Assembly (NCBI GenBank): GCA_024036415.1
Contig: JAMWET010003135.1
Coordinates: 1 to 64,000 of the forward strand
Length of the DNA stretch: 64,000 bases
Source of the DNA: Prochilodus magdalenae
Taxonomy: Eukaryota > Chordata > Actinopteri > Characiformes > Prochilodontidae
Direction: 5' to 3'
The position numbers and the translations under genes are program-made. The notes below the pieces were generated by a model. That model saw nothing but the letters and a program-made list of their open reading frames with translations, did no database searches and was not told the DNA's origin. Below are positions 1-29,512 of this stretch, piece by piece. The first letter of the stretch is position 1, and the number at the start of each line of letters is the position of its first letter.

Positions 1-978
1 CACTCTACATATAATCCACATAACATCTCTCACTCTTCATCTACATTCAAAACATCTCCACTCCCACATACAGCAACATACATCTCTCACTCTCATATAA
101 CAATCACGATACATTCTCTCCTCTACATATACATCCATACATCTCTCACTCTCACATACATCACATTACATCTCTCACTCTACATATACATCACATACAT
201 CTCTCACTCTACATATAACATCACATACATCTCTCACTCTCTTTCATATCCCACATAAACATCTCACACATCTCTCACATCTACTCACCTCATATACATC
301 ACATACAATCTCTCACCTACATATACATCACATCACATACAATCTTCTACTCATTCACATATACACTCACATACATCTCACTCTCACTCTTACATATACA
401 TCACATACATCTCTCACTCTTCATATACATCACATACATCTCTCACTTCTTACATATACATCACATACATCTCTCACATTATTTTCTTCTATCATATACA
501 TCACATACATCTACTCACTACTCTACATATACATCACATACAATATCTCTCACTCTTCTACATACAGCACATACATCTCTCACTCTACATATACATCAAA
601 CACACATCTCATCTTCATATACATCACATACATCTCTCACTCTTCACATTCATATACATCACATATACACATACATCTCTTCATAATACTCTTCACATAC
701 ATCTCTTACTCTTCATAGACATCACATACATCTCTCACTCTTCATCTTACATACACACATACATCTCTCACTCTTCATATACATCACATACATCTCTCAC
801 TCTTCATAATACATCACATACATCTCTCCACTCTACATATACATCACATACATTCTTCTCACTACTTCATAATACATCATATAATCACATAAATCTCTCA
901 CTCTCTCACATACATCAAACACATCTCAGACTTCATATACATCACATACACATACTCTTACTCATCATACATCTCTAT
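1..978. repeat. 29-bp minisatellite, degraded mirror copy
   Basis: Repeats of CATACATCTCTCACTCTACA and ATATACATCA are the reverse complement of the regular array at 27,420-29,510. Unit lengths here are irregular, with inserted and lost bases in most copies. The array runs off the left edge. Confidence 0.9.
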
Positions 979-1690
979 AATCAATGTTTTTTTTGCCTGG
1001 CTAAAAATACAAATAACCACCAAATTTTTAAAAGTGCCATAGCTTTTAACACAGGCCACATTTTGCCTCCACATCTAATTTCAATACAAACAAAGAGTAA
1101 ATATGCTGTAAAATGTGCAGAAGTGTGATCTGTGTATAAGATTTATTTATGTTGTCTTACAGCACTGCTGTAAACTTCTACAAATATTTACATTTATATT
1201 CTGTCAAAATTTTCACCATGTGCTCTTTGCTTTGGATGCTGAAAACTGCAACTACAGCTTAAGGCAAACAGAACAGAGAGGGAGACGGGAACCTGTGTCA
1301 TAACATCAGAGCTGGTATAAAGTCACGCGTACGAGCTGTTTGCTGTTTGTTAGTTTTGGTCAGGATCACCGGACAGGTTTTCCAGTCACTCTCTTCTTCA
1401 GACTCTGACTGCAGGTAAAATGTAATCTCTCAGAGATCACCTAACGTGAACCTTTACTCTTTATACAGGCCAAGAATCATATTATCACAACAGTCAGCTG
1501 GGCTAGAAACACTGCACAGGAGATGTTATTATAAAATACATTAATAAGATTTATTTAGGAACCTCCTTCTCCTCCATTCTCCTCCTCCACTCCTAGTGTG
1601 GTATGAACTGAATGTCTTGGAGAGGTGAAACTGAAACGGGGGACACACTGTGTGACAAAAACTAAGATGTACGATAAACAGGAGTCACTT
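979..1690. other. Non-repetitive mirror sequence, no gene seen
   Basis: This stretch mirrors about 26,730-27,410. Short open frames occur in both arms, but the two copies differ by frame-breaking indels and show no splice-site context or recognisable domain. No gene is supported. Confidence 0.6.
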
Positions 1691-2665
1691 AAAACTCTCC
1701 AAACATGTCCCAGAGAAAGAGAGGAAAGAGAGAGAAAGAGATGAGACGAGAGAGAAGAGAGGAGAGAGAGAGAGCGAGAGAGAAGAAAGAGAGAGAGAGA
1801 GAGAAAGAGGAAAGAGCGAGAGGGTCAGAGAGAGAGAGAGAGAGATAGAGAGAGAGAGAGATAAAGGAAAGAAGGATAAAGGCAGAGATGGAGAGACACA
1901 GATGGAGGGGGGGACAGGTATGGGGTAAGAGATGAAGAAAGAGAGAGGTAAAAAGATGGAGAATAAGAGATAGAGATGGCATAGATATGAAGAAAGGGAT
2001 GGAGAGGGATAGAGGGATGGTAGAGACGGGGAGACGAGAGAAAGATGGAAGGGAATAGATAGGATGGCGTAGAGACGGAGAAAGGGATGGAGGGGGATAA
2101 GAGGGATGGTTAGAGACGAAGAGAAAAGATGGGGAAGGGGATAGAGCGATGGCGTAGAGACGGAGGAAAAGGATGGTGGAGGGGGAAAGAGGGATGGTTT
2201 AGAGATGAAGAGAAAGCTGGAAGGGGATAGAGGATGGCGTAGAGGACGGAGAGAAGGGATGGAGGGGGATAGAGGGATGGTAGAGACGGAGAGAAAGATG
2301 GAAGGGGATAGAGCGATGGCGTAGAGACCGAGAAAGGGATGGAGGGGGATAAGAGGGATGGTAGAGACGGAGAGAAAGATGGAAGGGATAGAGGGGTGGC
2401 GTAGAGACGGAGGAAAGGGATGGAGGGGGATAGAGGGATGGCTTAGAGACGGAGAGAAAGATGGAAGGGGATAGAGGGGGTGGCGTGGGGGTAGAAGACG
2501 GAGAAAGGGATGGAGGGGGATAGATGAATGGTAGAGACAGAGAAAAAGATGGAAGGGAAATAGATAGATGGCGTAGAGACGGAGAAAGAAAGGATGGAAG
2601 GGGATAGAGGGGTGGCGTAGAGACGGAGAAAGGATGGAGGGCGATTAGAGGGGACAGGGTAGAGA
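1690..2665. repeat. Purine-rich GA tract and 80-bp minisatellite, mirror copy
   Basis: A (GA)n-rich tract (about 1,700-1,870) is followed by repeats of GGGATAGAGGGATGG and GGCGTAGAGACGGAG. They mirror the array at 25,790-26,705. Indels break the register here. Confidence 0.9.
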
Positions 2666-3189
2666 TGGAGAGAGGCAAGTTTAAAGTGGTGACTGTTATG
2701 TAAACCCGCAGTTCTGAGGAAGTGTCCTTGATAGCGTCAGTACCTGCATTAATCTCCCGCTGTTGTTCCATATCATGGAGCGGCTGGGAAGGCGCAGCAG
2801 GGAGCCGACAGAAAAACCTGGCGCTTTATTGTAACCCAGCTTTAGCACTGAAACAGGTCCCTACACATCAGACCCACAGGAGGAGCTCTGAGGCCACACT
2901 CAACACCACACACAGCACAGAGCCCCACACAGCAGCAGCGCCTGGGACTGCAGGTTTCATGGCCTAACGCTGAACTCCACAGTGGAGCTGATCAGATGAG
3001 ATCCTGTTTATTCCGTCTGTAAATGTATGGATACAGCAAGAATAAACAGCTGCAGCACAATTTCATCTCTCCTAATAAAGAAATTGATACAGCATGATAT
3101 GTTTCATGTTGTGTGTAAAAAGCACACTCCCCAAAACAGCTTTATTCTCACCACAGCTCCTGTAGATTGTTGCAAGTAGGGGTGGAGGT
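2666..3189. other. Non-repetitive mirror sequence, no gene seen
   Basis: Mirrors about 25,345-25,790. The open frame at 2,722-2,967 is not preserved in the other arm and has no recognisable domain. Confidence 0.55.
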
Positions 3190-3305
3190 GGAGTGACACC
3201 AGGCCTTCTGGACGCGGACATGAGGACAACAAACCACACACAGATCGTTGGTCAGCTCCACCAAGTCAAAAAGTGGGGACTGGTCCCTGAAGATGACCTG
3301 CTGCT
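3190..3305 (-). mobile_element. Tc1/mariner-like transposase relic, mirror copy
   Basis: Mirror of the relic at 25,190-25,345. Read on the minus strand it carries the stretch CAGTCCCCACTTTTTGACTT, which aligns with copies at 42.5 kb and 48.0 kb where it encodes an FSD-SHF-L-like transposase core. It abuts the 21-bp array. Confidence 0.7.
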
Positions 3306-5580
3306 AAGCACAACCAAAACCCCTACGCAGTACAACCAAAACCCCCTACCAGTACAGCAAAACCTTACCAGTACAGCCAAAACTCCTACCAGTACAAACC
3401 AAAACACCCTACCAGTACAGCCAAAAAACCCCTACCAGTACAGCCAAAACCCCTACCATTACAGCCCAAAACCCCCTACCAGATACAGCCAAAACCTTAC
3501 CAGTACTGCCAAAACTCCTACCAGTACTGCCCAAAACTCCTACCAGTACAGCCAAAACCCACTACCAGTACAGCCAAAAACCCCTACCAGTACAGCCAAA
3601 AACCCCTACCAGTACAACCAAAAAACCGTCTACCCAGTACAGCCAAAACCCTTACCAGTACTGCCCAAAACCCCTACCAGTACAGCAAAAACTCCTACCA
3701 GTACAGCCTATATACCCCTACCAGTACTGACCAAAAAAACCCCTACCAGTACAGCCAAAACCCCTACCAGTCAACCCAAAAACCCCTACCAGTACAGCCA
3801 AAACCCTTACCAGTACTGCCAAAACTCCTACCAGTTACTGCCAAAAAACTCCTACCAGTACAACAAAAACCCCTACCAGTACAACTAAAACCCCTACCAG
3901 CACAACAAAAACCCCTACCAGTACAACCAAAACCCCTACCAGTACAACAAAAACTCCTCCCAGTACAACCAAAACCCCTACTAGTTTAACAAAAACTCCT
4001 ACCAGCACAACCAAAACCCCTACCAGTACAACAAAAACTCCTACCAGTACAACCAAAACCCCTCCCAGTACAGCCAAAACCCATACCAGTACAGCCAAAA
4101 ACCCCTACCAGTACAACCAAAAACCCCCCCCTACAGTACTAGCCAAAAACCCCTACCAGTACAGCCACAAACCCCTACCAGTACAAACCAAAACCCCTAC
4201 CAGTACAGCCCAAAAACCCCTACCAGTACAGCCAAAACCCCTACCAGTACAGCACAAGGACCTCTCCTATTACAACCAAACCTCTCCCAGTGCAGTCAAA
4301 AAACCTCTCTTATTACAACCCAAACCTCTCCCAGTACAGTCAAAACCTCCTCCTATTACAACCAAAACCCCTACCAGTACAGCCAAAACCCTTACCAGTA
4401 CTGCCAAAAACCCCTACCAGTACAGCAAAACTCCTACCAAAACTCCTACCAAATACAGCCAAGACCCCTACCAGTACTGCCAAAACCCCTACCAGTACAG
4501 CCAAAACCCCTACCAGTACAACCAAAACCCCTACCAGTACAGCCAAAACCCTTACCAGTACTGCCAAAACTCCTACCAGTACTGCCAAAACTCCTACCAG
4601 TACAGCCAAAACCCCTACCAGTACAACCAAACCTCTCCCAGTACAGTCAAAACCCCTACCAGTACAGCCAAGACCTCCTCCTATTACAACCAAACCTCTC
4701 CCAGTACAGTCAAAACCTCGACCTATAACAACCAAACCTCTCCCAGTACAGTCAAAAACCTCCTCCTATTACAACCAAACCTCTCCCAGTACAGTCAAGA
4801 CCCTCCTCCTTTTACAAACCAAAACCTCTCCCCGTACAGTCAAAGACCTCCTCCTATTACAACCAAACCTCTCCCAGTACAGTCAAAACCTCCTCATTAT
4901 TACAAAACCAAACCTCTCCCAGTACAGTCAAAAACCTCCTCATATTACAATCAAAACCTCTCCCAGTACAGTCAAGAACCTCCTTCCTATTACAAACCAA
5001 ACCTCTCCCAGTACAGTCAAGAACCTCCTCCTTTTACAACCAAACCTCTACCCAGTACAGCCTAGACCTCCTACTATTAAAACCAAACCTCTCCCAGTAC
5101 AGTTCAAGACCTCCTCCTTTTACAACCAAACCTCTCCCAGTACAGCCTAGACCTCCTCCTATTACAACCAAAACCTCTCCCAGTACAGCCAAGACCGCCT
5201 CTATTACTAACCAAAACCTCTCCCAGTACAGCCCCCCCAAGACCTCTCCTATACAACCAAAACCTCTCCCAGTACAGTCAAGACTCCTCCTTTTACAACC
5301 AACCCTCTCCGTGTACAGGCTAGAACTCCTCCTATTACAACCAAACCTCTCCCAGTACAGTCAAGACCTCCTCCTTTTACAACCAAACCTCTCCCAGTAC
5401 AGCCTAGACCTCCTCTCATTACAACCAAAACCTCTCCCCAGTACAGCCAAGACCTCCTCCTATTACAAACCAAACCTCTCCCAGTACAGTCAAGACCTCC
5501 TCCTATTACAACCAAAACCTCTCCCAGTACAACCAAACCTGTTCCCAGTACAAACCAATACCGCTACCAGTACAACCAGC
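3300..5580. repeat. 21-bp/42-bp minisatellite, mirror copy
   Basis: Tandem CCTACCAGTACAGCCAAAACC units give way to 42-bp composite units with CCTCCTCCTATTACAACCAA and CCTCTCCCAGTACAGTCAA. It is the mirror of 22,925-25,190. Numerous one-base indels break the register, so only short stretches stay open in any frame. Confidence 0.93.
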
Positions 5581-6547
5581 CAATTGGTTCCATGTAACAT
5601 ATGGATTTTTTATATTTAGTCCTGTGCAGCTCTCGGATTTTTCGGATGTATTTTCAAATGATCAGGATTCAGGGCCAGAATGTTAGTCAGAGGAAGTGAC
5701 CAGGTGCAAACTAGGGTCAGTAAGGCTGGAGCTGTAACAGAGCTGAAACTGAGGCGAGTCAGTTAAAACAGAGATCGCCAGCTCCTCTGCTGCGGTCGTG
5801 TGTGGCTGTTTAGTCCTCTGCTGACAAAGAGCAGACATGCCCAGACCAGACATGCTTATAATATCCCCACTGAGGTTCAGCCTGCTTAATAATGGGATCA
5901 GACCGAAGCAGCAGCTCTGACGGCTCTGTTCTCCGTACTGTCACTGCACAGTCATTACCCTAAACCTGATTTGCTGCTTTAATGTTAATGGAGGTTGGTA
6001 AGCTTCGGCTTGTCTCACGGACTTTACTTCATTAAAGCACAAACAGTAAGTGGACATGAACTGATGTGAACAGCATTCTGGAATCTAGGCTGTACCTGAC
6101 AAAACAGAAAAAGCTGAGTGATGGAAGGGTTTAAAAACTCCTGAATCACCTTTCTACGGTTTGTAGACGGTTTTGCTATGATTTCGTCTCTACAGGGGTG
6201 TGGGGGAAGAACCAACAAATAGAACCGGTCCAAACTGCCTGCTTATAAAACAGCGTCTCAGACATCAGGCAGCGTAGTCATAACCATCCCATGTAGTAAC
6301 TTTCTGTAAGGGAGCTTTTGGAGGTGGGACGGTCTGGGTTCATTCACCCCCACTGTAAACAGTTCTGATTGTCTTTCACTTCTCCTTTAAGGTCATCATG
6401 TTGGGTTAATGAAAGTAACTGTTATATGATAGATGGTTATATCAAGAGGAGCATTTCACACTCTGCAGAAACCTCTGAGACTAATACAACATGTTTGTGT
6501 ATTGAGAGGGATACATACCCTGGATGGATCCTTTAAGGAACCTGCAG

Positions 6548-6578
<31 letters not shown>

Positions 6579-7194
6579 TTGATTAAAGGCAATGGATCTA
6601 TAACAATGAGTCAACTGATTTTAAAGACATATATGCCCACAGATAGACATTTCTGGATCACAGTTGTAATGCTGACTAAGACAGTTCACAGGACGACAGC
6701 ACATCTGCAGTTCACATATCATCCACGCAAGTGCGCTAAAACGTGTTAAAGCTTCATTAACAGACTCCCACACAGTCTAATCGAGTATCAGACAGCATAA
6801 CCAAAAGGCCATTTCTGTCTACACAGCTTTCCGAACATGCAGAGGATCCAGGATCTGTATAAGCAGCTCAGTCCTGAGCACAGCACTGCACCCACAGGTC
6901 TGCCAACCACAGCAGCGCACCTCGCCCCGCCCCGAGTGCATTCAACCAGTGCGGCTCAACAACTGCATCATAATGTGGTATTAATGCAGGACCCCACCCA
7001 TCATATTTCACAGCAGGAGATAACAGACTCATGCTGTGGTTTATATACAAGAACACAGGCCTACTACAACCACTCAGTACCTCAGGTCCAGAATCCTTCC
7101 TCAGGAGGAACTAACAGTGGCTAGCAGCAGTGCACGCTGTGTGTGTGAATGAAGAGAGTGTCCATTACCAGTCGTCATTAAGGTCTGTATGGCC
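5581..7194. other. Mostly unique mirror sequence
   Basis: Mirrors about 21,290-22,925. It holds a (GA)n run at about 6,554-6,578, the mirrored candidate microexon at 6,519-6,541, and a dispersed-repeat segment near 6,240-6,330 (mirror of 22,180-22,270, also seen at 47,555-47,640). The open frame at 6,837-7,124 diverges in sequence from its mirror at 21,370-21,684 and is not supported as a gene. Confidence 0.6.
6519..6541 (-). other. Mirror of the candidate RIM microexon
   Basis: Reverse complement of 21,980-22,002, again with a CAG acceptor and a GTATGT donor on the minus strand. It is presumably the same exon seen twice because of the fold-back. Confidence 0.3.
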
Positions 7195-8750
7195 TGGGTA
7201 TGGTGGGAAGGAGGTAGGTAGGTAGGGTGGGTAGGTTAGGAGGGAGGTAGGTAGATAGGTAGTAGGTGGCCAGGCTGGGTAGTATGGGAGGGAGGTTGGT
7301 AGGTAGGCGGGTAGGTAGGTAGGTTGGTGGGTACGTGTGGAGGTAGGTAGGCTGGGTAGGTAGGTAGGTAGGTTGGTACGTGTGGAGGTAGGTAGGCTGG
7401 GTAGGTAGGTAGGTAGGTTGGTACGTGTGGAGGTAGGTAGGCTGGGTAGGTAGGTAGGTAGGTAGGTGTGTAGGTAGGCTGGGTAGGTAGGTAGGTAGGT
7501 GTGTGTGTAGGTAGGCTGGGTAGGTTAGGAGAGAGGTAGGTTAGTAGGTAGGCAGTTAGGAAGGTTGGTTGGTGGGTAGGTGTGGAGGTAGGTAGGCTGG
7601 GTAGGTAGGTGTGTGTGTAGGTAGGCTGGGTAGGTAGGTAGGTAGACTCAGTAGGTTAGGATGGAGGTAGGTTGGTAGGTAGGCGTGTAGGTAGGTAGGT
7701 TGGTGGGTTGGTGTGGAGGTAGGTAGGCTGGGTAGGTAGGTAGGCTGAGTAGGTTAGGAGGGAGGTAGGTTGGTAGGTAGGCGTGTAGGTAGGTAGGTTG
7801 GTGGGTTGGTGTGTAGGTAGGTAGGCTGAGTAGGTTAGGAGGGAGTTAGGTTGGTAGGTAGGCGTGTAGGTAGGTAGGTTGGTGGGTTGGTGTGTAGGTA
7901 GGTAGGCTGAGTAGGTTAGGAGGGAGGTAGGTTGGTAGGTAGCCGTGTAGATAGGTAGGTTAGTGTGGAGGTAGGTAGGCTGGGTAGGTAGGTAGCCTGA
8001 GTAGGTAGGGTGGGTAGGTAGGTGTGTGTGAGGTAGGCTGGGTAGGTAGGTTGCCTGAGTAGGTTAGGAGGGAGGTAGGTTGGTAGGTAGGTAGGCTTGT
8101 AGGTTGGTAGGTTGGTGTGGAGGTAGGTAGGCTAGGTAGGTAGGTAGGCTGAGTAGGTTAGGAGAAAGGTAGGTTGGTAGGTAGGCGTGTAGGTAGGTAG
8201 GTTGGTGGGTTGGTGTGGAGGTAGGTAGGCTAGGTAGGTAGGTAGGCTGAGTAGGTTAGGAGGGAGGTAGGTTGGTAGGTAGGCGTGTAGGTAGGTAGGT
8301 TGGTGCGTTGGTGTGGAGGTAGGTAGGCTAGGTAGGTAGATAGGCTGAGTAGGTTAGGAGAGAGGTAGGTTGGTAGGTAGGCGTGTAGGTAGGTAGGTTG
8401 GTGGGTTGGTGTGGAGGTAGGTAGGCTAGGTAGGTAGGTAGGCTGAGTAGGTTAGGAGGGAGGTAGGTTGGTAGGTAGGCGTGTAGGTAGGTAGGTTGGT
8501 GGGTTGGTGTGGAGGTAGGTAGGCTAGGTAGGTAGGTAGGCTGAGTAGGTTAGGAGGGAGGTAGGTTGGTAGGTAGGCGTGTAGGTAGGTAGGTTGGTGC
8601 GTTGGTGTGGAGGTAGGTAGGCGTGTAGGTAGGTAGGTTGGTGTGTAGGTAGGTAGGTGGCTGAGTAGGTTAGGAGGGAGGTAGATTGGTAGGTAGGCGT
8701 GTAGGTAGGTAGGTTGGTGGGTTGGTGTGGAGGTAGGTAGGCTGTATCGT
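7195..8750. repeat. (GTAG)n-based array, regular copy
   Basis: Long runs of GTAGGTAGGTAGGTTGGTGG with recurring GTGTGGAGGTAGGTAGGCT and TTAGGAGGGAGGTAGGTTGG segments show a tetranucleotide core and a longer unit. It mirrors 19,545-21,285. This is one place where the left copy is the more regular of the two. Confidence 0.93.
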
Positions 8751-9974
8751 GAGACGCTGGCACTCGTGTACTGATGTTCCGTGACTGCAGGAACACAGTG
8801 TCAATATCACACGTTAGCTCGACTCTCCAGCGCGTTACTGCTCAGTCATGCACGTGAGTAGATCTCTGTCTTAATGAGGTAACCTACTTTCCTGTGGCTG
8901 TTGTGATTCACGGTTCACTATCAGCCACTTGTTTAAGTGTTCTGAGTGCTGGTAAATGCTGAACACATGATCTTCTTGTCACATATGTGACCTGTGGCTC
9001 GGCTTAGTGAACATTTACTGATTCCCTGTTTATTTTAAAGCTGCAGGCTTTCCCGCACACATGCACACACATACCATCCATCATACTGACACTCCATGAT
9101 TACAAATGAAGAACGTTCAGGGACAACACACCAGAACACAGCAGCACAGAAACATCCATAATATTCACAATTATTACATATATCATTTTAGGGTGAAACA
9201 AAATCACCCCAGAACACTGCACTGAAGAAGATAGCCTGAGAAATGTATAAAACGTATGCATCTATCAAGTTTCCTCTGTACTGCAGGTATTCCACTCATT
9301 CTTCACACTTTCTGCATAATTAAAGGAGCGATCTGTAAAATAACCACAGCTTATAATAACCTGTGCAGATTTGTTTACTCAAGCTTGTTAGGCTTAAAAC
9401 TGATTATATATTCAGGTAACAAAAAAATACAGTGATCACACACACACACACACACACAGCATGCATATTAACTGCACTCAGTCACTCCATGGACAGTGAA
9501 AACGTTTTGAGGTAAAGCACGCAGCAGAAAAGGATCTCAAAAAACACCAGTGGGCCAAACCAGTGCCAAGTTCCTTAGATGTAAAACTATGATAGGTATA
9601 GAGTATCCACACGGTAAGACAGTACGATACCGGCATCTCCGTGTTCTGGCACTGCCTCTACTGCCACCGGCGTGAGATGGTGGTGAAAGATGAAAACACA
9701 AAATGAGGACCAAAGCAAACAAAAACAAAACAAACAAAACATTTAAGCAGGAACTGAGGATCTGTCACTATCAACCATGCGAATAATCCATTCCCACATA
9801 CTATTACAGAGTTCCTAAAAACGCCCAGACATACCTCAGTGAAGGAAAAGTATCAAGGAAGACTCACTAGTATAAATAAGCATGATGGATGCATAAAGTC
9901 ATGCATCTACCAGGCTTTCGCTACAGTATCTGTCAGGTATTCCACTCATTCTTTCAAACTTTCCGCATAACTTA
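8751..9974. other. Mirror sequence, no gene seen
   Basis: Mirrors about 18,345-19,545. It contains a (CA)n run at about 9,437-9,459. No splice-consistent coding sequence or recognisable domain is present. Confidence 0.55.
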
Positions 9975-10160
9975 AAGGAGCAATATTGCAATTAAAGGAG
10001 CCTCAGCCATTCCTTGTGTTTACTGTTCTTTAATGCGTTCAGTGATCTAACAGGGAGCAGCACCCAGCGTATTTCTAACTGTTTTCTATCATTCATGTTG
10101 AAATTTGGAATGGTTTACACTGAAAAATACTTACATCTTGCTCCTTTAAAAGGCCAAGAA
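9975..10160. mobile_element. Small TIR element (MITE-like), mirror copy
   Basis: Ends carry AAAGGAGCAATATTGCAATT and, inverted, TTGCTCCTTTAAAAGG. It mirrors the element at 18,173-18,345. Confidence 0.55.
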
Positions 10161-10845
10161 TGTAAAACAAAGTTCACTGTTAGGCCAACCACAGATTTAC
10201 AATAACATGTGAGACTTGCAGAAATATTTTACTAGGCCAGTTAGCTTTAACTGATTATAATCATATTATATATATATGATATATAATAATCTAACTGACA
10301 GTCCTACAAAAAAGCAAACAACACCATTACAGGGGATCACACGCACAACACAGACACAACACACACACACACACACACCCCACACACACACAAAGCATGC
10401 ACATTAAACTGCACTCGTCAGTCCTACTGACAGGGAAACAGTGTTCTAAATACACCAACAGCCAGAAACAGACCAACAGTAACAACTAACACAGGCAGCT
10501 TCCTAAACAAACACCTCTACTATGTGCTGCCAATCTACAAGCACTGGTGAACACTAGGGTGGCACTGATATTGATACCCGCACTGGTAGCAGTGCCTGCA
10601 GTAATCAGGTATGTGCTACCAGAAGGATGTTAATCTGTATCAGTGCATTCTTAGTGAACACTGAACACGGCATTAGTGTGCTCAGTAATATGGCAGTTGA
10701 GGAAGCACACGCGGTGGGGTTTATTCCACATTACTGTCATGAATGGTAGACGACCGGTGGGAAGCAATCTATCTGCGTGTTTCATTCACTTGTGCCACTC
10801 AGCTTATAGTGCTCGCTAATCACGTTACAACATATCCGGTCATTT
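10161..10845. other. AT-rich and CA-rich sequence, no gene seen
   Basis: It contains TATATA-rich sequence near 10,262-10,288 and an interrupted (CA)n tract at about 10,340-10,395. Mirrors about 17,535-18,170. Confidence 0.6.
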
Positions 10846-11095
10846 AGCCCGATGACTCCGTCCAGTACATTGGTACGACTCTGGCCTGAGCACATACATC
10901 CAAGCGTTTAGCGTGACCTATCCTGTCCCCAGTCAGTGGTACAACATCTGGGCCTGAGCACATACCATCCAGTCGTTTGCGTGGACTCTGTCCAGTTCCA
11001 GTGGTCCGATCTGGGCCTGAACACACTCATCTGGTCATTTTAGCGTTACTATGTCCAGTCCAGTGGTGCACGACTCTGGACCCTGAGAATACATA
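10846..11095. repeat. 61-bp minisatellite, mirror copy
   Basis: About four units containing GGCCTGAGCACATACATCCA and TCCAGTCCAGTGG. It mirrors 17,290-17,535. Confidence 0.8.
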
Positions 11096-11794
11096 TTTAC
11101 ACCTACAGTTTTTTCCTTCCTTATCGGACATTCAGATTTGAGACAACTCACCACCGTCTATGGTTATCTACTGTTGCCTCAGTAAGTATGGTCACAGTGA
11201 TTTTCATTGACTGCGTACTACACATAGTGGTAGCAACAACTTCCAAAAGCCATTTAGATGCTGGCAACATTGCCCCACAACTGGGACAATACAGCAAACT
11301 AGGACAGTATGTCAGGGCCAAGGACCCAGCCTAATTCGAGGTCGACATTATTTATCCCCCAGATAATGATGGAGATGTTAGTTTTTCGCTTGAGTTGCCA
11401 CAGCACACAGGAAAGAAGAAATCGGGACAGCTCCATAACTGTATTAAGGTTCAAGCTAGACAGCGTAGCGAAACCACACAGCATTGAGATCTGGAGCTAA
11501 TAATAACCGACACTCTGAATGCACAGGCGCCGCAAATCCTGAAAGCTGTTCTCTGTCTGGAGGGTTTGTTTGTGATGTTCGAGGACGCTCACGAAAGCAG
11601 GAGTGTAGTGAGACCGAACAGATAACCGTGGATTAAACCATGCGGGTGTTTTATTGTGGTTCTGACTCTAGTGTTGTATTTCACAGCTCAGAAAACAAAA
11701 AGGTATGACCGATGGAGAGCTTTCTCCGACAGAGCTTTCTCCAACCTCAAACTTCCATCTTAGCAATGAGTGTGTGTTTGTCTATACACAGGTC
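11096..11794. other. Mirror sequence, no gene seen
   Basis: Mirrors about 16,640-17,285. The short open frames here and in the mirror do not match each other in frame. No domain is recognised. Confidence 0.5.
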
Positions 11795-11990: not shown

Positions 11991-12039
11991 GCTAAATCTT
12001 TGGCCCTGCCACAGAACAGTTTTCAGAGTCAGAGAGACT

Positions 12040-12250: not shown

Positions 12251-12299
12251 ACAGCATAGTCACCGAGACTGGGATTCATCCAATGGCATACCCTTGCCA

Positions 12300-16635: not shown

Positions 16636-16639
16636 TGTG

Positions 16640-17285: not shown

Positions 17286-17289
17286 TATG

Positions 17290-17943: not shown

Positions 17944-17945
<2 letters not shown>
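17536..17945. other. Right-arm sequence, no gene seen
   Basis: No coding signal. Contains short imperfect inverted motifs around ACCAGTGCGGTATCAATATC. Confidence 0.5.
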
Positions 17946-17983
<38 letters not shown>

Positions 17984-17998
17984 TGTGTGTGTGCGTGT
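17946..17998. repeat. (GT)n microsatellite
   Basis: About 25 GT units with one CT interruption. The left-arm mirror (10,340-10,395) is broken differently. Confidence 0.9.
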
Positions 17999-18172
17999 GA
18001 TCCCTGTATGGTTTGTTTGCTTTTTTGTAGGACTGTCAGTTAGAATTAATATATCATCTATATATAATATATATAATCAGTTAAATATAACTGGCCTAGT
18101 AAATAGTCTGCAAGTCTACAGGTTATTGTAAATCTGTGGTTGGCCTAAGTGACTTTGTTTACATCTTGGCCT

Positions 18173-18345
18173 TTTAAAGGAGCAATATGTAAGATTTTTC
18201 AGTGTAAAACATTCCAAAATTCAACATGACTGATGAGAAGTTAGAATACGCTGGGGTGCTGCTCCCTGTTAGATCACTGAACGCATTAAAGAAACAGTAA
18301 ACACAAGGATGGCTGAGGCTCCTTTAATTGCATATTGCTCCTTTA
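18173..18345. mobile_element. Small TIR element (MITE-like)
   Basis: The left end TTTTAAAGGAGCAATATGTA and the right end TTGCATATTGCTCCTTTA are inverted copies about 170 bp apart. The internal sequence is non-coding. The AAAGGAGC end motif recurs, inverted, near 18,955-18,970. Confidence 0.6.
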
Positions 18346-19540
18346 TTTATGCGGAAAGTTTGAAGAATGAGTGGAATACCTGCAGATACTGTACGAAAGC
18401 CTGGTAGATGCATGCTTTATGCATCCATCATGCTTATTTATACTAGTAAGCTTCCTTGATATCTTCTTCACTGAGGTATTCTGGGAGTTTTTAGAGACTC
18501 TGTATAGTATGTGGACTGGATTATTCGCATGGTTGATAGTGACAGCTCCTCAGTTCTGCTTAAATGTTTGTTTGTTTGTTTGTTTGTGCTTTGTCCTCAT
18601 TTTGTGTTTCATCTTCACCACCATCTCACGCCGTGGCAGTAGAGGCAGTGACAGAAAACGGAGATGCAGGTATCGTACTGTCTTACCGTGTGGATACTCT
18701 ATACTATCATAGTTTACATCAAAGGAACTTGGCACTGGTTTTGGCACTGGTGTTTTGAGATCCTTTTCTGCTGCAGTGCTTTACCTCAAAACGTTTCACT
18801 GTCATGGAGTGATGAGTGCAGTTAATATGCATGCTGTGTGTGTGTGTGTGTGTGTGATCACTGTATTGTTTGTTTACCTGAATATATAATCAGTTTAAGC
18901 CAACAAGCTTAGTAAACAATCTGCAGGTTATTATAAAGCTGTGGTATTTTACAGATCGCTCCTTTAATTATGCAGAAAGTGTGAAGAATGAGTGGAATAC
19001 CTGCAGATACAGAAGGAAACTTGATAGATGCATACGTTATACATTTATCAGGCTATCTTCTTCAGTGAAGTGTTCTGGGGTGATTTATGTTCACCCTAAA
19101 ATGAATAATATGTAATAAATTGTGAATATTATGGATGTTTCTGTGCTGCTGTGTTCTGGGTGTGGGTCACTGAACGTTCTTCATTTGTAATCATGGAGTG
19201 TCAGTATGATGGATGGTATGTGTGTGCATGTGTGCGGGAAAGCCTGCAGCTTTAAAATAAACAGGGAATCAGTAAATGTTCACTAAGCCGAGCCACAGGT
19301 CACATATGTGACAAGAAGATCATGTGTTCAGCATTTACCAGCACTCAGAACACTTAAACAAGTGGCTGATAGTGAACCGTGAATCACAACAGCCACAGGA
19401 AAGTAGGTTACCTCATTAAGACAGAGATCTACTCACGTGCATGACTGAGCAGTAACGCGCTGGAGAGTCGAGCTAACGTGTGATATTGACACTGTGTTCC
19501 TGCAGTCACGGAACATCAGTACACGAGTGCCAGCGTCTCA
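18346..19540. other. Right-arm sequence, no gene supported
   Basis: It includes a (TG)n run (about 18,835-18,856). An open stretch near 18,600-18,690 contains Arg/Ser-rich codons followed by CAGGTATCG, but acceptor quality and frame are not convincing and it is not conserved in frame in the mirror. Confidence 0.5.
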
Positions 19541-19544
19541 CGAT

Positions 19545-21285
19545 ACAGCCTACCTACCTCCACACCAACCCACCAACCTACCTACCTACACGCCTACCTA
19601 CCAATCTACCTCCCTCCTAACCTACTCAGCCACCTACCTACCTACACACCAACCTACCTACCTACACGCCTACCTACCTCCACACCAACGCACCAACCTA
19701 CCTACCTACCTACACGCTACCAACTACCTACCTACCAACCTACCTAACCTCCCTCCTAACCTACTCAGCCTACCTACCTACCTAGCCTACCTACCTACCT
19801 CACTCCAACAAACCCACCAACCTACCTACCTACACGCCTACCTACCAACCTACCTCCCTCCTAACCTACTCAGCCTACCTACCTTACCAACAGCCTACCT
19901 ACCTCCACACCAACCATCCCACCAACCTACCTACCTACAACGCACTACCTACCAACCTACCTCTCTCCTAACCTAACTCAGCCTATCTACCTACCTAAGC
20001 CTACCTACCTCCACACCAACGCACCAACCTACCTACCTACACGCCTACCTACCAACCTACCTCCCTCCTAACCTACTCAGCCTACCTACCTACCTAGCCT
20101 ACCTACCTCCACACCAACCCCATCCAACCTACCTACCTACCTACACGCCTACCTACCCAACCTACCTACCTTCCCTAACCTACTCAGCCTACCCAACCTA
20201 CCTACCTAGCCTACCTACCTCCACACCTCCAACCTACCCAACCTACACACAGCCTACCTACCCTAGCATCCAACCTACCTCACCTCCTAAACCTACTCAG
20301 GCCTACCTACAACCTACCTCCAGCCTAACCTCTCAGCCTCCAACCTACCTACCCACCCACCTACTACTACTCACGCCTACCTACCTACCCATCCCTACCT
20401 AACCCTCACCTACCACTACCAACCTACACACACACCTACCTACCCAGCCTACCTACCTCCACACCTACCAACCTACCTCCCTCCTCCTAACCTACTCAGC
20501 CTACCTACCATACCTACCTACACACCAACCCACCAACCTACCTACCTACACGCCTACCTACCAACCCAACTCCCTCCTAACCTACCAGCTACCTCTACCT
20601 ACTACTACCTACACACCAACCCACCAACCTACCTACCTACACGCCTACCTACCAACCTACCTCCCTCCTAACCTACTCAGCCTACCTACCTACCCAGCCT
20701 ACCTACCTCCACACCAACCCACCAACCTACCTACCTACACGCCTACCTACCAACCTACCTCCCTCCTAACCTACTGAGTCTACCTACCTACCTACCTACC
20801 TACCCAGCCTACCTACACACACACCTACCTACCCAGCCTACCTACCTCCACACCTACACACCAACCAACCAACCTAACAGCCAACCTACTAACCTACCTC
20901 TATACTAACCTACCCAGCATACCTACCTACACACACACCCTACCTACCTACCTTACCCAGCCTACCTACCCAGCCTACCTACTCTACCTACCTACCTACC
21001 CAGCCTACCTACCTCCACACACCCAACCCTACCTACCTACACCTACCTACCAAGCCTACCTCCCTCCTACCTCCAGACACGTACCTACCCACCTACCTAC
21101 CTACCTACCCAGCCTACCTACCTCCACACGTACCCACCAACCAACCTACCTACCTACCCGCCTACCTACCAACCTCCCTCCCATACCTACCCAGCCCTAC
21201 ACACACACCACCTACTACCTATCTACCTACCTCCCTCCTAACCTACCCAGCCACCTACCTCTACCTACCTACCTTCCCACCATAC
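19545..21285. repeat. (CCTA)n-based array, irregular copy
   Basis: CCTACCTACCTACACGCCTA and CTCCCTCCTAACCTACTCAG recur throughout. Between about 20,100 and 21,000 units are heavily scrambled by small indels compared with the regular mirror at 7,195-8,750. It is about 190 bp longer than the mirror. Confidence 0.93.
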
Positions 21286-21289
21286 CCAG

Positions 21290-21935
21290 GGCCATACACA
21301 TAGACCTTAATGACGACTGGTACCATGGACACTCCATACTTCATTCACACACACAGCGTGCTACTGCTGCTAGCCACTGTTAGTTTCCTTCCCACCTGAG
21401 GCCATAGGATTCTGGTAACCTGAGGTCTCACACACACAGCGTGCACTGCTGTAGGCCTGTTGTTCTCTTCTGGATGATAAACCACAGCATGAGTCTGTTA
21501 TCTCCTGCTGTGAAATCTGATGGGTGGGGTCCTGCATTAATCCCACATTATGATGCAGTTGTTGAGCCGCACTGGTTGAATGCACTCGGGGCGGGGCGAG
21601 GTGCGCTGCTGTGGTTGGCAGACCTGTGGGTGCAGTGCTGTGCTCAGGACTGAGCTGCTTATACAGATCCTGGATCCTCTGCATGTTCGGAAAGCTGTGT
21701 AGACAGAAATGGCCTTTTGGTTATGCTGTCTGATACTCGATTAGACTGTGTGGGAGTCTGTTAATGAAGCTTTAACACGTTTTAGCGCACTTGCGTGGAT
21801 GATATGTGAACTGCAGATGTGCTGTCGTCCTGTGAACTGTCTTAGTCAGCATTACAACTGTGATCCAGAAATGTCTATCTGTGGGCATATATGTCTTTAA
21901 AATCAGTTGACTCATTGTTATAGATCCATTGCCTT
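21290..21935. other. Mostly unique sequence upstream of the candidate microexon
   Basis: A 104-codon open frame on the minus strand (21,370-21,684) shares only its first part with the mirror copy and diverges after indels. It has no recognised domain, so it is not called a gene. Confidence 0.5.
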
Positions 21936-21942
21936 TAATCAA

Positions 21943-21969
<27 letters not shown>
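21936..21969. repeat. (TC)n microsatellite in a polypyrimidine tract
   Basis: An uninterrupted TC run immediately precedes TGTTTCTGCAG, so it serves as the pyrimidine tract of the candidate microexon's 3' splice site. The copy in the other arm is shorter. Confidence 0.9.
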
Positions 21970-21973
<4 letters not shown>

Positions 21974-21979
21974 CTGCAG

Positions 21980-22002
21980 GTTCCTTAAAGGATCCATCCA
22001 GG
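21980..22002 (+). CDS. Candidate 23-nt microexon, possibly of the RIM gene
   Basis: A (TC)n polypyrimidine tract and TTTCTGCAG acceptor are followed after 23 nt by a strong AGG|GTATGT donor. With two bases completing an upstream codon, the exon reads SLKDPSR and ends in phase 0, exactly the phase required by the first recognised RIM exon at 29,670. The TGC next to the acceptor resembles motifs upstream of neuronal microexons. The sequence is present in both arms with splice sites intact. I cannot confirm from memory that RIM proteins contain this peptide, and 23 nt is short enough to occur by chance. It would need an upstream exon ending in phase 1, which is not seen in this window. Confidence 0.35.
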
Positions 22003-22924
22003 GTATGTATCCCTCTCAATACACAAACATGTTGTATTAGTCTCAGAGGTTTCTGCAGAGTGTGAAATGCTCCTCTTGATATAACCATCTATCATATAAC
22101 AGTTACTTTCATTAACCCAACATGATGACCTTAAAGGAGAAGTGAAACAATCAGAACTGTTTACAGTGGGGGTGAATGGAACCAGACGTCCACCTCTAAA
22201 AGCTCCCTTACAGAAAGTTACTACATGAGATGGTTATGAATACGCTGCCTGATGTCTGAGACGCTGTTTATAAGCAGGCAGTTTGGACCGGTTCTATTTG
22301 TTGGTTCTTCACACTGTAGAGACGAATCAGGCAAAACCGGCTAAAACAGTAGAAAGGTGATTCAGGGTTTAAACCCTTCATCACCTCAGCTTTTCTGTTT
22401 TGTCAGGTACAGCCTAGATTCCAGAATGCTGTTCACAGAGTTCATGTCACTTACTGTTTGTGCTTTAATGAAGTAAAGTCCGTGAGACAGCCCGAGCTAC
22501 CAACTCCATAACATTAAAGCAGCAAATCAGGTTTAGGGTATGACTGTGCAGTGACAGTACGGAGAACAGAGCCGTCAGAGCTGCTGCCTTCGGTCTGATC
22601 CATTATTAGAGCAGGCTGAACCTCAGTGGGGATATTATAAGCATGTCTGGGTCTGGGCATGTCTGCTCTTTGTCAGCAGAGGACTAAACAGCCACACACG
22701 ACCGCAGCAGAGGAGCTGGCATCTCTGTTTTAACTGACTCGCCTCAGTTTCAGCTCTGTTACAGCTCCAGCCTTACTGACCCTGTTTGCACCTGGTCACT
22801 TCCTCTGACTAACATCTGGACTGAATCCTGATCATTTTGAAATACATCCGAAAAATCCGAGAGCTGCACAGGACTAAATATAAAAAAATCCATATGTTAC
22901 ATGGAAACCAATTGCTGGTTTGTA
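22003..22924. other. Unique and dispersed-repeat sequence, no gene seen
   Basis: A segment at 22,180-22,270 with ACCAGACGTCCACCTCTAAA and TACGCTGCCTGATGTCTGAG is repeated almost exactly at 47,555-47,640, so it is a dispersed element. No splice-consistent coding sequence is seen. Confidence 0.6.
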
Positions 22925-23955
22925 CTGGTAGCGGTATTGGTTGTACTGGGAAAGGTTTGGTTGTACTGGGAGAGGTTTGGTTGTAATAGGAGGAGGTCTT
23001 GACTGTACTGGGAGAGGTTTGGTTGTAATAGGAGGAGGTCTTGGCTGTACTGGGAGAGGTTTGGTTGTAATAGGAGGAGGTCTAGGCTGTACTGGGAGAG
23101 GTTTGGTTGTAAAAGGAGGAGGTCTTGACTGTACTGGGAGAGGTTTGGTTGTAATAGGAGGAGGTCTAGGCTGTACTGGGAGAGGTTTGGTTGTAAAAGG
23201 AGGAGGTCTTGACTGTACTGGGAGAGGTTTGGTTGTAATAGGAGGAGGTCTTGGCTGTACTGGGAGAGGTTTGGTTGTAATAGGAGGAGGTCTTGGCTGT
23301 ACTGGGAGAGGTTTGGTTGTAATAGGAGGAGGTCTAGGCTGTACTGGGAGAGGTTTGGTTGTAAAAGGAGGAGGTCTTGACTGTACTGGGAGAGGTTTGG
23401 TTGTAATAGGAGGAGGTCTAGGCTGTACTGGGAGAGGTTTGGTTGTAAAAGGAGGAGGTCTTGACTGTACTGGGAGAGGTTTTGGTTGTAATAGGAGGGA
23501 GGTTCTTGACTGTACTGGGAGAGGTTTGGTTGTAATAGGAGGAGGTCTTGACTGTACTGGGAGAGGTTTGGTTGTAATAGGAGGAGGTTTTGACTGTACT
23601 GGGAGAGGTTTGGTTGTAATAGGAGGAGGTTTTGACTGTACTGGGAGAGGTTTGGTTGTAATAGGAGGAGGTCTTGGCTGTACTTGACTGTTTTTACTGG
23701 GAGAGGTTTGGTTGTAATAGGAGGAGGTTTTGACTGTACTGGGAGAGGTTTGGTTGTAATAGGAGGAGGTCTTTGGGTTTTAGGGGTTTTGACTGTACTG
23801 GGAGAGGTTTGGTTGTAATAGGAGGAGGTCTTGACTGTACTGGAGGAGAGGTTTTGGTTGTAATAGGAGGAGGTCTTGGCTGTACTGGGAGGGTTTGGTT
23901 GTAAAAGGAGGAGGTCTTGACTGTACTGGGAGAGGTTTGGTTGTAATAGGGTTAG
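22925..23955. repeat. 42-bp higher-order minisatellite
   Basis: Each 42-bp unit is a pair of 21-mers, TACTGGGAGAGGTTTGGTTG(T) and AATAGGAGGAGGTCTTGGCT(G). Units alternate by small variants (AATAGG against AAAAGG, CTTGAC against CTAGGC). A few insertions near 23,480, 23,690 and 23,780 disturb the register. Because 42 is a multiple of 3, frames stay open on both strands without coding meaning. Confidence 0.95.
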
Positions 23956-25190
23956 GGGTTTTGACTGTACTGGTAGGAGGTTTGGCAGTACTGGTAGGAG
24001 GGTTTTGGCAGTACTGGTAGGGGTTTTGGCTGTACTGGGAGTGGTGTGGGTGTAATAGGAGGTGGTTTTGGCTGTACTGGTAGGGGTTTTGGCAGTACTG
24101 GTAGGGGTATTGGCTGTACTGGTAGGAGTTTTGGCTGTACTGGTAGGGGTTTTGGCAGTACTGGTAAGGGTTTTGGCTGTACTGGTAGGGGTTTTGGTTG
24201 TAATAGGAGGAGGTTTTGACTGTACTGGGAGAGGTTTGGTTGTAATAAGAGGAGGTTTTGACTGCACTGGGAGAGGTTTGGTTGTAATAGGAGGAGGTCT
24301 TGGCTGTACTGGTAGGGGTTTTGGCTGTACTGGTAGGGGTTTTGGCTGTACTGGTAGGGGTTTTGGTTGTACTGGTAGGGGTTTTGGCTGTACTGGTAGG
24401 GGTTTTGGCAGTACTGGTAGGGGTTTTGGTTGTACTGGTAGGGGTTTTGGCTGTACTGGTAGGGGTTTTGGTTGTACTGGTAGGGGTTTTGGCTGTACTG
24501 GTAGGGGTTTTGGCTGTACTGGTAGGGGTTTTGGTTGTACTGGTAGGGGTTTTGGCTGTACTGGTAGGGGTTTTGGTTGTACTGGTAGGGGTTTTGGCTG
24601 TACTGGTAGGGGTTTTGGTTGTACTGGTAGGGGTTTTGGCTGTACTGGTAGGGGTTTTGGCTGTACTGGTAGGGGTTTTGGCTGTACTGGTAGGAGTTTT
24701 GGCAGTACTGGTAGGAGTTTTGGCAGTACTGGTAAGGGTTTTGGCTGTACTGGTAGGGGTTTTGGTTGTACTGGTAGGGGTTTTGGCTGTACTGGTAGGG
24801 GTTTTGGCAGTACTGGTAGGGGTATTGGCTGTACTGGTAGGAGTTTTGGCTGTACTGGTAGGGGTTTTGGCAGTACTGGTAAGGGTTTTGGCTGTACTGG
24901 TAGGGGTTTTGGTTGTACTGGTAGGGGTTTTGGCTGTACTGGTAGGGGTTTTGGCTGTACTGGTAGGGGTTTTGGCTGTACTGGTAGGAGTTTTGGCAGT
25001 ACTGGTAGGAGTTTTGGCAGTACTGGTAAGGGTTTTGGCTGTACTGGTAGGGGTTTTGGCTGTACTGGTAGGGGTTTTGGCTGTACTGGTAGGGGTTTTG
25101 GTTGTACTGGTAGGAGTTTTGGCTGTACTGGTAAGGGTTTTGGCTGTACTGGTAGGGGTTTTGGTTGTACTGGTAGGGGTTTTGGTTGTG
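23955..25190. repeat. 21-bp minisatellite
   Basis: About 58 units of TACTGGTAGGGGTTTTGGCT(G), with variants GGCAG, GGTTG and GGAGTT arranged in longer blocks that recur (24,660-24,790 and 24,960-25,030). It merges into the 42-bp form on its left. The 783-, 487- and 314-codon open frames here are all consequences of a 21-nt period. Confidence 0.95.
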
Positions 25191-25345
25191 CTAGCAGCAG
25201 GTCATCTTCAGGGACCAGTCCCACTTTTGACTTGGTGGAGCTGACCAACGAATCTGTGTGTGGTTTGTTGTCTCATGTCACGCGTCCAGAAGGCCTGGTG
25301 TCACTCCACCTCCACCCCTACTGCACAATCTACAGGAGCTGTGTG
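25190..25345 (+). pseudogene. Tc1/mariner-like transposase relic at the array edge
   Basis: CATCTTCAGGGACCAGTCCC followed by CTTGGTGGAGCTGACCAACG and, further on, CAGAAGGCCTGGTGTCACTC and CCCTACTGCACAATCTACAG aligns with the relics at 42,555-42,715 and 48,000-48,060. The transposase part upstream of this point is missing, replaced by the 21-bp array. Confidence 0.75.
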
Positions 25346-25789
25346 AGAATAAAGCTGTTTTGGAGTGGGCTTTACACAAACATGAAATATCAGCTGTATT
25401 TCTTTATTAGAGAGATGAAATTGTGCTGCAGCTGTTATTCTTGCTGTATCCAATACATTTACAGACGGATAAACAGGATCTCATCTGATCAGCTCCACTG
25501 TGGAGTTCAGCGGTTAGGCCCATGAAACCTGCAGTCGGGCGCTGCTGCTGTGTGGCTCTGTGCTGTGTGTGTGTTGAGTGTGGCCCTCAGAGCTCCTCCT
25601 GTGGGTCTGATGTGTAGGGACCTGTTCAGTGCTAAAGCTGGGTTACATAAAGCGCCAGGTTTCTGTCGGCTCCCTGCTGCGCCTTCCCAAGCCGCTCCAT
25701 GATATGAACAACAGCGGGAGATTAATGCAGGACTGACGCTATCAAGGACACTTCCTCAGAACTGCGGGGTTACATAACAGTCACCACTT
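25346..25789. other. Unique sequence, no gene seen
   Basis: Moderately CpG-containing sequence (GCGCCAGG, CTGTCGGC, CTGCGCC) between two arrays. No splice-bounded open frame or recognised domain. Confidence 0.5.
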
Positions 25790-26475
25790 TAAACTTGCCT
25801 CTCTCCATCTCTACCCTGTCCCTCTATCGCCCTCCATCCCTTTCTCCGTCTCTACGCCACCCCTCTATCCCCTTCCATCCCTTTCTCCGTCTCTACGCCA
25901 TCTATCTATTCCCTTCCATCTTTTTCTCTGTCTCTACCATTCATCTATCCCCCTCCATCCCTTTCTCCGTCTCTACGCCACCCCTCTATCCCCTTCCATC
26001 TTTCTCTCCGTCTCTACCATCCCTCTATCCCCCTCCATCCCTTTCTCCGTCTCTACGCCACCCCTCTATCCCCTTCCATCTTTCTCTCCGTCTCTACCAT
26101 CCCTCTATCCCCCTCCATCCCTTTCTCTGTCTCTACGCCATCGCTCTATCCCCTTCCATCTTTCTCTCCGTCTCTACCATCCCTCTATCCCCCTCCATCC
26201 CCTTCTCCGTCTCTACGCCATCCATCTATCCCCTTCCAGCTTTCTCTTCATCTCTACCATCCCTCTTTCCCCCTCCATCCTTTTCTCCGTCTCTACGCCA
26301 TCGCTCTATCCCCTTCCATCTTTCTCTTCGTCTCTACCATCCCTCTATCCCCCTCCATCCCTTTCTCCGTCTCTACGCCATCCATCTATTCCCTTCCATC
26401 TTTCTCTCCGTCTCTACCATCCCTCTATCCCTCTCCATCCCTTTCTTCATATCTATGCCATCTCTATCTCTTATT
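25790..26475. repeat. 80-bp pyrimidine-rich minisatellite (2 x 40 bp)
   Basis: CCCCTCTATC recurs at 25,981 and 26,061, an 80-bp period made of two related 40-mers, one with CCTTCCATCTTTCTCTCCGT and one with CCCTCCATCCCTTTCTCCGT. About eight 80-bp units. The 319-codon open frame across it is Pro/Ser/Leu-only and artefactual. Confidence 0.93.
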
Positions 26476-26622
26476 CTCCATCTTTACCTCTCTCTTTCTT
26501 CATCTCTACCCCATACCTGTCACCCCCTCCATCTGTCTCTCCATCTCTGCCTTTATCCTTCTTTCTTTATCTCTCTCTCTCTCTATCTCTCTCTCTCTCT
26601 GTCCCTCTCGCTCTTTCCTCTT

Positions 26623-26691
<69 letters not shown>

Positions 26692-26705
26692 TTCCTCTTT
26701 CTCTG
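26476..26705. repeat. (CT)n-rich polypyrimidine tract
   Basis: Nearly uninterrupted pyrimidines with long TCTCTCTC runs and scattered TTT or CGC interruptions. Such homopurine-homopyrimidine sequence can form triplex DNA in vitro; that is a property of the class, not shown here. Confidence 0.92.
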
Positions 26706-27415
26706 TGGACATGTTTGGAGAGTTTTAGTGACTCCTGTTTATCGTACATCTTAGTTTTGTCACACAGTGTGTCCCCGTTGTTCACCTCTCCAAGACATTC
26801 AGTTCATACCACACTAGGAGTGGAGGAGGAGAAGGAGGAGAAGGAGGTCCTAAATGAATCTTATTAATGTATTTTATATAACATCTCCTGTGCAGTGTTC
26901 TAGCCCAGCTGACTGTTGTGATAAATGATTCTGGCCTGTATAAAGAGTAAAAGGTCACGTTAGGTGATCTCTGAGAGATTACATTTTACCTGCAGTCAGA
27001 GTCTGAAGAAGAGAGTGACTGGAAACCTGTCGGTGATCCTGACCAAACTAAACAAACAGCAAACAGCTCGTACGCGTGACTTTATACCAGCTCTGATGTT
27101 ATGACACAGGTTCCCTCTCCCTCTCTGTTCTGTTGCCTTAAGCTGTAGTTGCAGTTTTCAGCATCAAAGCAAAGAACATGGTGAAAATTGAAGAATATAA
27201 ATGTAAATATTTGTAGAAGTTTACAGCAGTGCTGTAAGACAACATAAATAAATCTTATACACAGATCACACTTCTGCACATTTTACAGCATATTTACTCT
27301 TTGTTGTATTGAAATTAGATGTGGAGGCAAATGTGGCCTGTGTGAAAAGCTATGGCACTTTTAAAAATTTGTGGTTATTTGTATTTTTAGCCAGCAAAAA
27401 ACATTGATTATAGAG
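26706..27415. other. Unique sequence, no gene seen
   Basis: The clean mirror of 979-1,690. The open frame at 27,082-27,279 (minus) has a counterpart at 1,115-1,303 whose reading differs after indels, with no domain. Confidence 0.55.
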
Positions 27416-29512
27416 ATGTATGATGAGTAAGAGTATGTGTATGTGATGTATATGAAGTCAGAGATGTGTTTGATGTATGTGAAGAGTGAGAGATGTATGT
27501 GATGTATATGAAGAGTGAGAGATGTATGTGATGTATATGTAGAGTGAGAGATGTATGTGATGTATATGAAGAGTGAGAGATGTATGTGATGTATATGAAG
27601 AGTGAGAGATGTATGTGATGTATATGAAGAGTGAGAGATGTATGTGATGTATATGAAGAGTAAGAGATGTATGTGAAGAGTGAGAGATGTATGTGATGTA
27701 TATGAAGAGTGAGAGATGTATGTGATGTATATGAAGAGTGAGATGTGTTTGATGTATATGTAGAGTGAGAGATGTATGTGCTGTATGTGAAGAGTGAGAG
27801 ATGTATGTGATGTATATGTAGAGTGAGAGATGTATGTGATGTATATGAAGAGTGAGAGATGTATGTGATGTATATGTAAAGTGAGAGATGTATGTGATGT
27901 ATATGAAGAGTGAGAGATGTATGTGATGTATATGAAGAGTGAGAGATGTATGTGATGTATATGAAGAGTAAGAGATGTATGTGATGTATATGTAGAGTGA
28001 GAGATGTATGTGATGTATATGTAGAGTGAGAGATGTATGTGATGTATATGAAGAGTGAGAGATGTATGTGATGTATATGTAGAGTGAGAGATGTATGTGA
28101 TGTATATGTAGAGTGAGAGATGTATGTGATGTATATGTAGAGTGAGAGATGTATGTGATGTATATGAAGAGTGAGAGATGTATGTGCTGTATGTGGAGAG
28201 TGAGAGATGTATGTGATGTATATGAAGAGTGAGAGATGTATGTGATGTATATGTAGAGTGAGAGATGTATGTGATGTATATGTAGAGTGAGAGATGTATG
28301 TGATGTATATGTAGAGTGAGAGATGTATGTGATGTATATGAAGAGTGAGAGATGTATGTGATGTATGTGGAGAGTGAGAGATGTATGTGATGTATATGTA
28401 GAGTGAGAGATGTATGTGATGTATATGAAGAGTGAGAGATGTATGTGATGTATATGTAGAGTGAGAGATGTATGTGATGTATATGTAGAGTGAGAAATGT
28501 ATGTGATGTATATGAAGAGTGAGAGATGTATGTGATGTATATGTAGAGTGAGAGATGTATGTGATGTATATGTAGAGTGAGAGATGTATGTGATGTATAT
28601 GTAGAGTGAGAGATGTATGTGATGTATATGAAGAGTGAGAGATGTATGTGATGTATATGTAGAGTGAGAGATGTATGTGATGTATATGTAGAGTGAGAGA
28701 TGTATATGAAGAGTGAGAGATGTATGTGATGTATATGTAGAGTGAGAGATGTATGTGATGTATATGTAGAGTGAGAGATGTATGTGATGTATATGTAGAG
28801 TGAGAGATGTATGTGATGTATATGAAAAGTGAGAAATGTATGTGATGTATATGTAGAGTGAGAAATGTATGTGATGTATATGAAGAGTGAGAGATGTATG
28901 TGATGTATATGTAGAGTGAGAGATGTATGTGATGTATATGTAGAGTGAGAGATGTATGTGATGTATATGTAGAGTGAGAGATGTATGTGATGTATATGAA
29001 GAGTGAGAAATGTATGTGATGTATATGAAGAGTGAGAGATGTATGTGAAGAGTGAGAGATGTATATGAAGAGTGAGAGATGTATGTGAAGAGTGAGAGAT
29101 GTATGTGATGTATATGTAGAGTGAGAGATGTATGTGATGTATATGTAGAGTGAGAGATGTATATGAAGAGTGAGAGATGTATGTGATGTATATGTAGAGT
29201 GAGAGATGTATGTGATGTATATGAAGAGTGAGAGATGTATGTGATGTATATGTAGAGTGAGAGATGTATGTGATGTATATGTAGAGTGAGAGATGTATGT
29301 GATGTATATGAAGAGTGAGAGATGTATGTGATGTATATGTAGAGTGAGAGATGTATGTGATGTATATGTAGAGTGAGAGATGTATGTGATGTATATGTAG
29401 AGTGAGAGATGTATGTGATGTATATGAAGAGTGAGAGATGTATGTGATGTATATGAAGAGTGAGAGATGTATGTGAAGAGTGAGAGATGTATGTGATGTA
29501 TATGTAGAGTGA
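27416..29512. repeat. 29-bp minisatellite, about 70 units
   Basis: Units of AGAGTGAGAGATGTATGTGA followed by TGTATATGT or TGTATATGA repeat every 29 bp with very little divergence; occasional units lose 10-19 bp. The 703-codon minus-strand open frame arises because three 29-bp units are 87 nt and none of the phases contains a stop. The array ends about 160 bp before the RIM exon at 29,670. Confidence 0.95.

Follow-up and report, generated by a model that had tools for sequence, protein, structure and literature searches.

Fold-back reads, in which a strand and its near-complete complement are concatenated as a duplicated inversion, account for approximately 0.55-0.6% of ONT genomic reads and for virtually none in PacBio HiFi data according to the part of PMC12870357 drawn on here, which also warns of assembly-graph tangles caused by such reads and in which fewer than half of them keep more than 11 bp between the two segments. 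In the sections of PMC6218980 that we use, a PacBio control prepared without amplification had palindromes in 0.5% of its reads, and missed adapters are described as able to harm assemblies; the same sections quote arm lengths of 8.7-1450 kb for the human Y palindromes P1-P8.

The window analysed here, by which we mean the whole stretch of 64,000 nucleotides, comprises bases 1-64000 of contig C3111 (633,627 bp) of Prochilodus magdalenae, and its first base is the first base of that contig. An initial annotation had described a near-complete palindrome with a 14-bp spacer at this end, and such a structure is present in the sequence: the left arm can be aligned end to end with the reverse complement of the right arm (Table 1), with 90.5% identity across the 14,719 columns of a global alignment that contained 13,321 matches and 264 mismatches. 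The left arm carries 654 extra bases in 404 events and the right arm 480 in 230 events, and two alternative scorings returned identities of 90.5% and 90.4%. Given its length, chance is no option as the source of the mirror. The end point, earlier placed at about 28,400, is corrected by the alignment to 28318 or 28347, depending on the scoring, and falls within a 29-bp satellite that itself extends to 29512. Small indels outnumber substitutions between the arms as had been claimed, but the part of that claim that placed them mainly in homopolymers does not hold, since the 404 left-extra events comprise 71 in runs of at least four bases, 176 in runs of two or three, 97 isolated bases and 60 mixed cases.

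Within the limits of the sections cited, the locus resembles the fold-back reads of PMC12870357 in its near-complete concatenation of strand and complement and in a turn of less than 200 bp, here 14 bp, the second segment mapping back onto the location of the first in opposite orientation; unlike those reads, it is fixed in an assembly contig and is known from the assembly alone. With the palindromic reads treated by Pacasus, which arise from whole-genome amplification and missed SMRTbell adapters (PMC6218980, same sections), it shares a palindrome at the level of the read, arms rich in errors and a disturbing effect on assembly, but unlike the missed-adapter reads described there an adapter remnant was not found at the present centre. 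Long arms, a short spacer and tracts of full identity are features that it has in common with biological palindromes that undergo gene conversion, such as the human Y palindromes P1-P8, whereas its insertion-heavy differences in one arm, its position at the end of a contig and its absence from a second contig of the locus set it apart from them. The initial annotation had taken the structure for a likely fold-back chimera at the end of a contig, a reading supported by the position at the contig start, by a second contig that crosses the centre without folding and by insertion-heavy changes private to the left arm; judged from the sequence, positions 1-14253 are very probably a fold-back sequencing artefact rather than genuine genomic sequence.

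Table 1. Features of the mirrored region, in window coordinates.
Feature	Position	Strand	Basis or remark
Left arm, noisy mirror of 14254-28318, probably not present in the genome	1-14239	-	Arm alignment, contig start, private changes relative to C5329
Identical block, left arm	6374-6978	-	605 bp equal to right arm
AGGT-type array, left arm	7212-8741	-	Shorter than its mirror, 19549-21286
Identical block, left arm	8581-9120	-	540 bp equal to right arm; ends abruptly in noisy sequence
UnaL2 LINE 3' element, left mirror	12141-12195	-	44.7 bits; one insertion, one deletion, lost stem pair
T run of about 20 bases, left arm	13766-13788	+	Missing from right arm and C5329
Spacer AAAATGATCTTATG	14240-14253	.	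14 bp at the turn
Right arm, probably the true genomic copy and continuous with the remainder of the contig	14254-28318	+	Arm alignment, few right-only changes beyond 15,755 outside arrays
Noisy first 1.35 kb of right arm	14255-15604	+	75 right-only columns
UnaL2 LINE 3' element, right arm	16258-16311	+	59.0 bits
29-bp satellite, contains the mirror end	27438-29512	+	Inserted-base count relative to unit

As the window begins with the first base of C3111, the left arm ends where the contig ends. Examination of the first 10 kb of 20 other contig starts, one of which was half N, revealed a palindrome in none, a test that arms of 14 kb like the present ones would escape; the assembly is therefore not full of such ends. 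A search of the assembly (1.18 Gb, 7790 contigs) with a probe spanning the centre identified C5329:66166-66394, which beside the centre is 97% identical to the left arm and 91% to the right arm. The match of this contig (78,711 bp) to the two arms begins at base 66166, which corresponds to the palindrome centre, and extends over 12.5 kb to the end of C5329, reaching 77609 among the BLAST matches listed and 78711 in the multiple alignment. To the left of 66166, across the 19.7 kb retrieved (46501-66165), it carries other sequence and does not fold back; no window match at E 1e-20 other than a dispersed repeat was found in that interval, nor any inverted self-match of at least 250 bp in C5329 46501-78711. 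The 744 bases adjoining the junction (query 523-1266) had no other match in the genome among the best 40 of 1075 candidates. The turn is thus not repeated at the locus in C5329, the one contig seen crossing the junction, which passes the centre in other sequence.

A 1.6-kb probe from the arm gave three full-length matches among the best 40 of 212 candidates, namely the right arm, C5329 (96%) and the left arm (93%), while its remaining matches, the other 40, were all short. Together with the crossing by C5329, these three matches suggest that the locus is present once per haplotype; one contig passes the turning point without turning. C5329:66166-78711 and window positions 14255 to approximately 26,600 constitute a 12.5-kb allelic overlap between contigs that are unjoined, likely due to the fold-back. 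Just left of the junction, at approximately 62538-64950, C5329 also contains a tandem satellite with relatives in C243, C958, C2720, C3963 and other contigs.

With C5329 as referee, a three-way alignment yielded 1092 columns in which the left arm alone differed, 304 in which the right arm alone differed, 1256 in which C5329 alone differed, much of this last class being array length, 110 in which all three differed and 10,847 in which all were the same. Events were then counted over right-arm positions 15755-26600, which start over 1.5 kb beyond the centre, with tandem arrays and 20 bases on each side of them excluded. Changes private to the left arm comprised 132 insertions, 19 deletions and 43 clean substitutions, those private to the right arm 13, 3 and 2, and those private to C5329 6, 36 and 27, respectively. 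The half with errors like those of raw reads is thus the left arm, apart from two places, one next to the centre and one next to the AGGT array, and its private changes have the appearance of insertion-heavy raw-read noise. Insertions exceed deletions in PacBio reads. The excess of insertions in the left arm speaks for early PacBio reads and against the nanopore profile described in PMC4719071, in which deletions outnumber insertions about two to one; section 8 of PMC4719071 puts indels at about 15 times substitutions in PacBio reads.

An assembler error, in which a walk through the graph left the right arm and re-entered it on the other strand in the absence of any chimeric read, would suit a contig end, where such walks happen, and a mirror that spans from the centre to that end; both copies would however share one consensus in that case, and instead the left arm carries most of the private errors, so that we give this account hardly any weight. 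A fold-back of a single read would also be expected to place both arms on one haplotype. Across seven 500-base bins (15755-19254), the left arm agreed with the right arm against C5329 at 34 substitutions and with C5329 against the right arm at 5, so the left arm appears to derive from the right-arm haplotype.

The shared haplotype would equally be found in a real inverted duplication on one haplotype, with C5329 as the uninverted allele and gene conversion keeping tracts of the arms identical, and this account is in keeping with the 605- and 540-bp identical tracts and with the allele-like differences that separate C5329 from the two arms. Against it, the left-only changes are mostly insertions (132, versus 43 clean substitutions), the left arm stops at the first base of the contig, and noise in the right arm is confined to the AGGT array and the neighbourhood of the centre. 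Over 15755-19540 the ratio of indels to clean substitutions was 112:37 for left-only changes versus 7:12 for the allelic C5329 changes (Fisher p 0.002), and the isolated mismatches between the arms comprised 30 transitions and 94 transversions, neither of which is the natural mutation spectrum of a biological palindrome; the transition to transversion contrast with the allele, 8:35 versus 11:16, was not significant (p 0.056). We therefore regard a real inverted duplication as very improbable. There is a similarly slender chance of a very young 28-kb palindrome on one haplotype, formed here by snap-back of a broken end, with a left arm that would have been badly sequenced since hairpin-forming DNA defeats the polymerase.

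The preference for a fold-back read with errors in its left half agrees with three yardsticks within the arms that are independent of C5329, the UnaL2 element, the 29-bp satellite and an 80-bp array, all of which indicate a noisier left arm. Relative to the 29-bp unit, which was taken from the right-hand array and so favours the right arm, inserted bases numbered 0 in 27438-28318, 71 in the left mirror at 1-952 and 0 in 28348-29430, a segment that lies outside the mirror and serves as a check. Indels affected 0% of the 80-bp array in the right arm and 11% in the left arm. Other potential referees were set aside. Ten stop-to-stop frames of the window, five from the right arm and five from beyond it, gave no match at or above the curated cut-off in Pfam, and coding frames were rejected because they offered no means of polarising the arms. 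As outgroups, dispersed repeats located beyond 28,500 were usable but short, and were superseded by C5329; a copy at 47530-47650 resembles the right arm at 89% and the left at 85%.

At the turning point, the spacer includes the heptamer ATCTTAT, with which C5329, read outward, continues beyond the arm. This shared motif suggests that the end of the molecule may have lain a few bases beyond the arm, although 105 of 5000 random 20-mers of the genome match the spacer as well as the seven-base match does. The initial annotation had offered a missed hairpin adapter as one form of the fold-back. In that variant, two passes over one PacBio insert would have been read with the SMRTbell adapter unrecognised between them, which would suit insertion-heavy noise of the early PacBio kind, and missed adapters are named as a cause of palindromic reads in the sections of PMC6218980 used here. 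The 14-bp spacer is however shorter than the 45-base adapter, and a comparison of the 54 bases round the centre detected nothing adapter-like. The score against the letters that we take to be those of the SMRTbell adapter was 14 of 90, a value that 9-11% of shuffles also attained. A missed adapter is thus less favoured than strands joined or read in succession, and we consider it an unlikely variant within the fold-back explanation. Rfam matches at the centre, including mir-384 and mir-255, were below their gathering scores and were rejected as microRNAs, as they reflect the hairpin shape.

The distribution of noise is patchy and fits a simple fold-back less well. Neither of the two identical blocks in the left arm (Table 1) contains a single difference from the right arm, although the longest difference-free gap in 2000 shuffles of the 853 difference events was 260. 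Such tracts of full identity are what a gene-converting palindrome would have; patchy consensus correction would also explain them. Beside the centre the polarity of the noise is reversed, as within 300 bp of it the left arm has no private changes and the right arm has 23. Right-only columns in successive 150-base bins from the centre numbered 11, 12, 6, 2, 12, 7, 3, 12 and 10, followed by 0, 2, 0, 0, 0 and 0, so that right-only noise persists to approximately 15,600 and almost none is seen thereafter. Beside the AGGT array, the bins at 21305 and 21455 hold 39 right-only columns and no left-only ones. A negative correlation between left and right noise was not found in bins of 100, 150 or 250 bases (Spearman -0.13, -0.11 and +0.13, none significant; bins with less than 80% of columns left out), and the idea of one read pool split between the two copies is unsupported by this result. 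Patches of consensus correction on either copy could account for both the patchy noise and the identical tracts, an explanation that, with no negative correlation to draw on, we infer. The identical blocks could also represent gene conversion in a real palindrome, against which the insertion-heavy, one-sided character of the differences would speak.

For the fold-back, we envisage that a long read passed along one strand of a DNA fragment and returned on its complement, and that the return half would have been kept as further genome, becoming positions 1-14253 of the contig. The turn would have been made by a single read, either on a molecule with its two strands joined at the end or on strands read in succession, and patches of consensus correction may have produced the identical stretches in the left arm. 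The right arm would then be the probable real locus, and its predicted true left neighbour is C5329 to the left of base 66166.

The tandem arrays at 58648-60914 (40-bp unit, 92% matches) and 39553-40154 (67-bp unit, 97% matches) are clean, and the contig beyond the palindrome is therefore not noisy. Copies of a dispersed repeat occur in both orientations and with 73-74% identity at approximately 42349-42651, 44957-45270 and 47734-48101, and stretches near the first and last of these also match C5329:61550-61823. A self-palindromic element of approximately 370 bp at 62647-63015, with halves that are 76% identical, is probably a fold-back or MITE-type transposon.

Left unmasked, the fold-back would lead to approximately 14 kb being counted twice, including five tandem arrays and the LINE tail, and a giant palindrome might be reported. 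The likely consequence is that positions 1-14253 should be dropped or masked, after which C5329 becomes the natural left neighbour of C3111. The fold-back probably keeps these two contigs apart, and once positions 1-14253 are removed they would overlap by approximately 12.5 kb as alleles. The case may also provide a recipe for other draft genomes, in which a palindrome at a contig end would be suspected when its outer arm alone proves insertion-noisy with a second contig as the referee.
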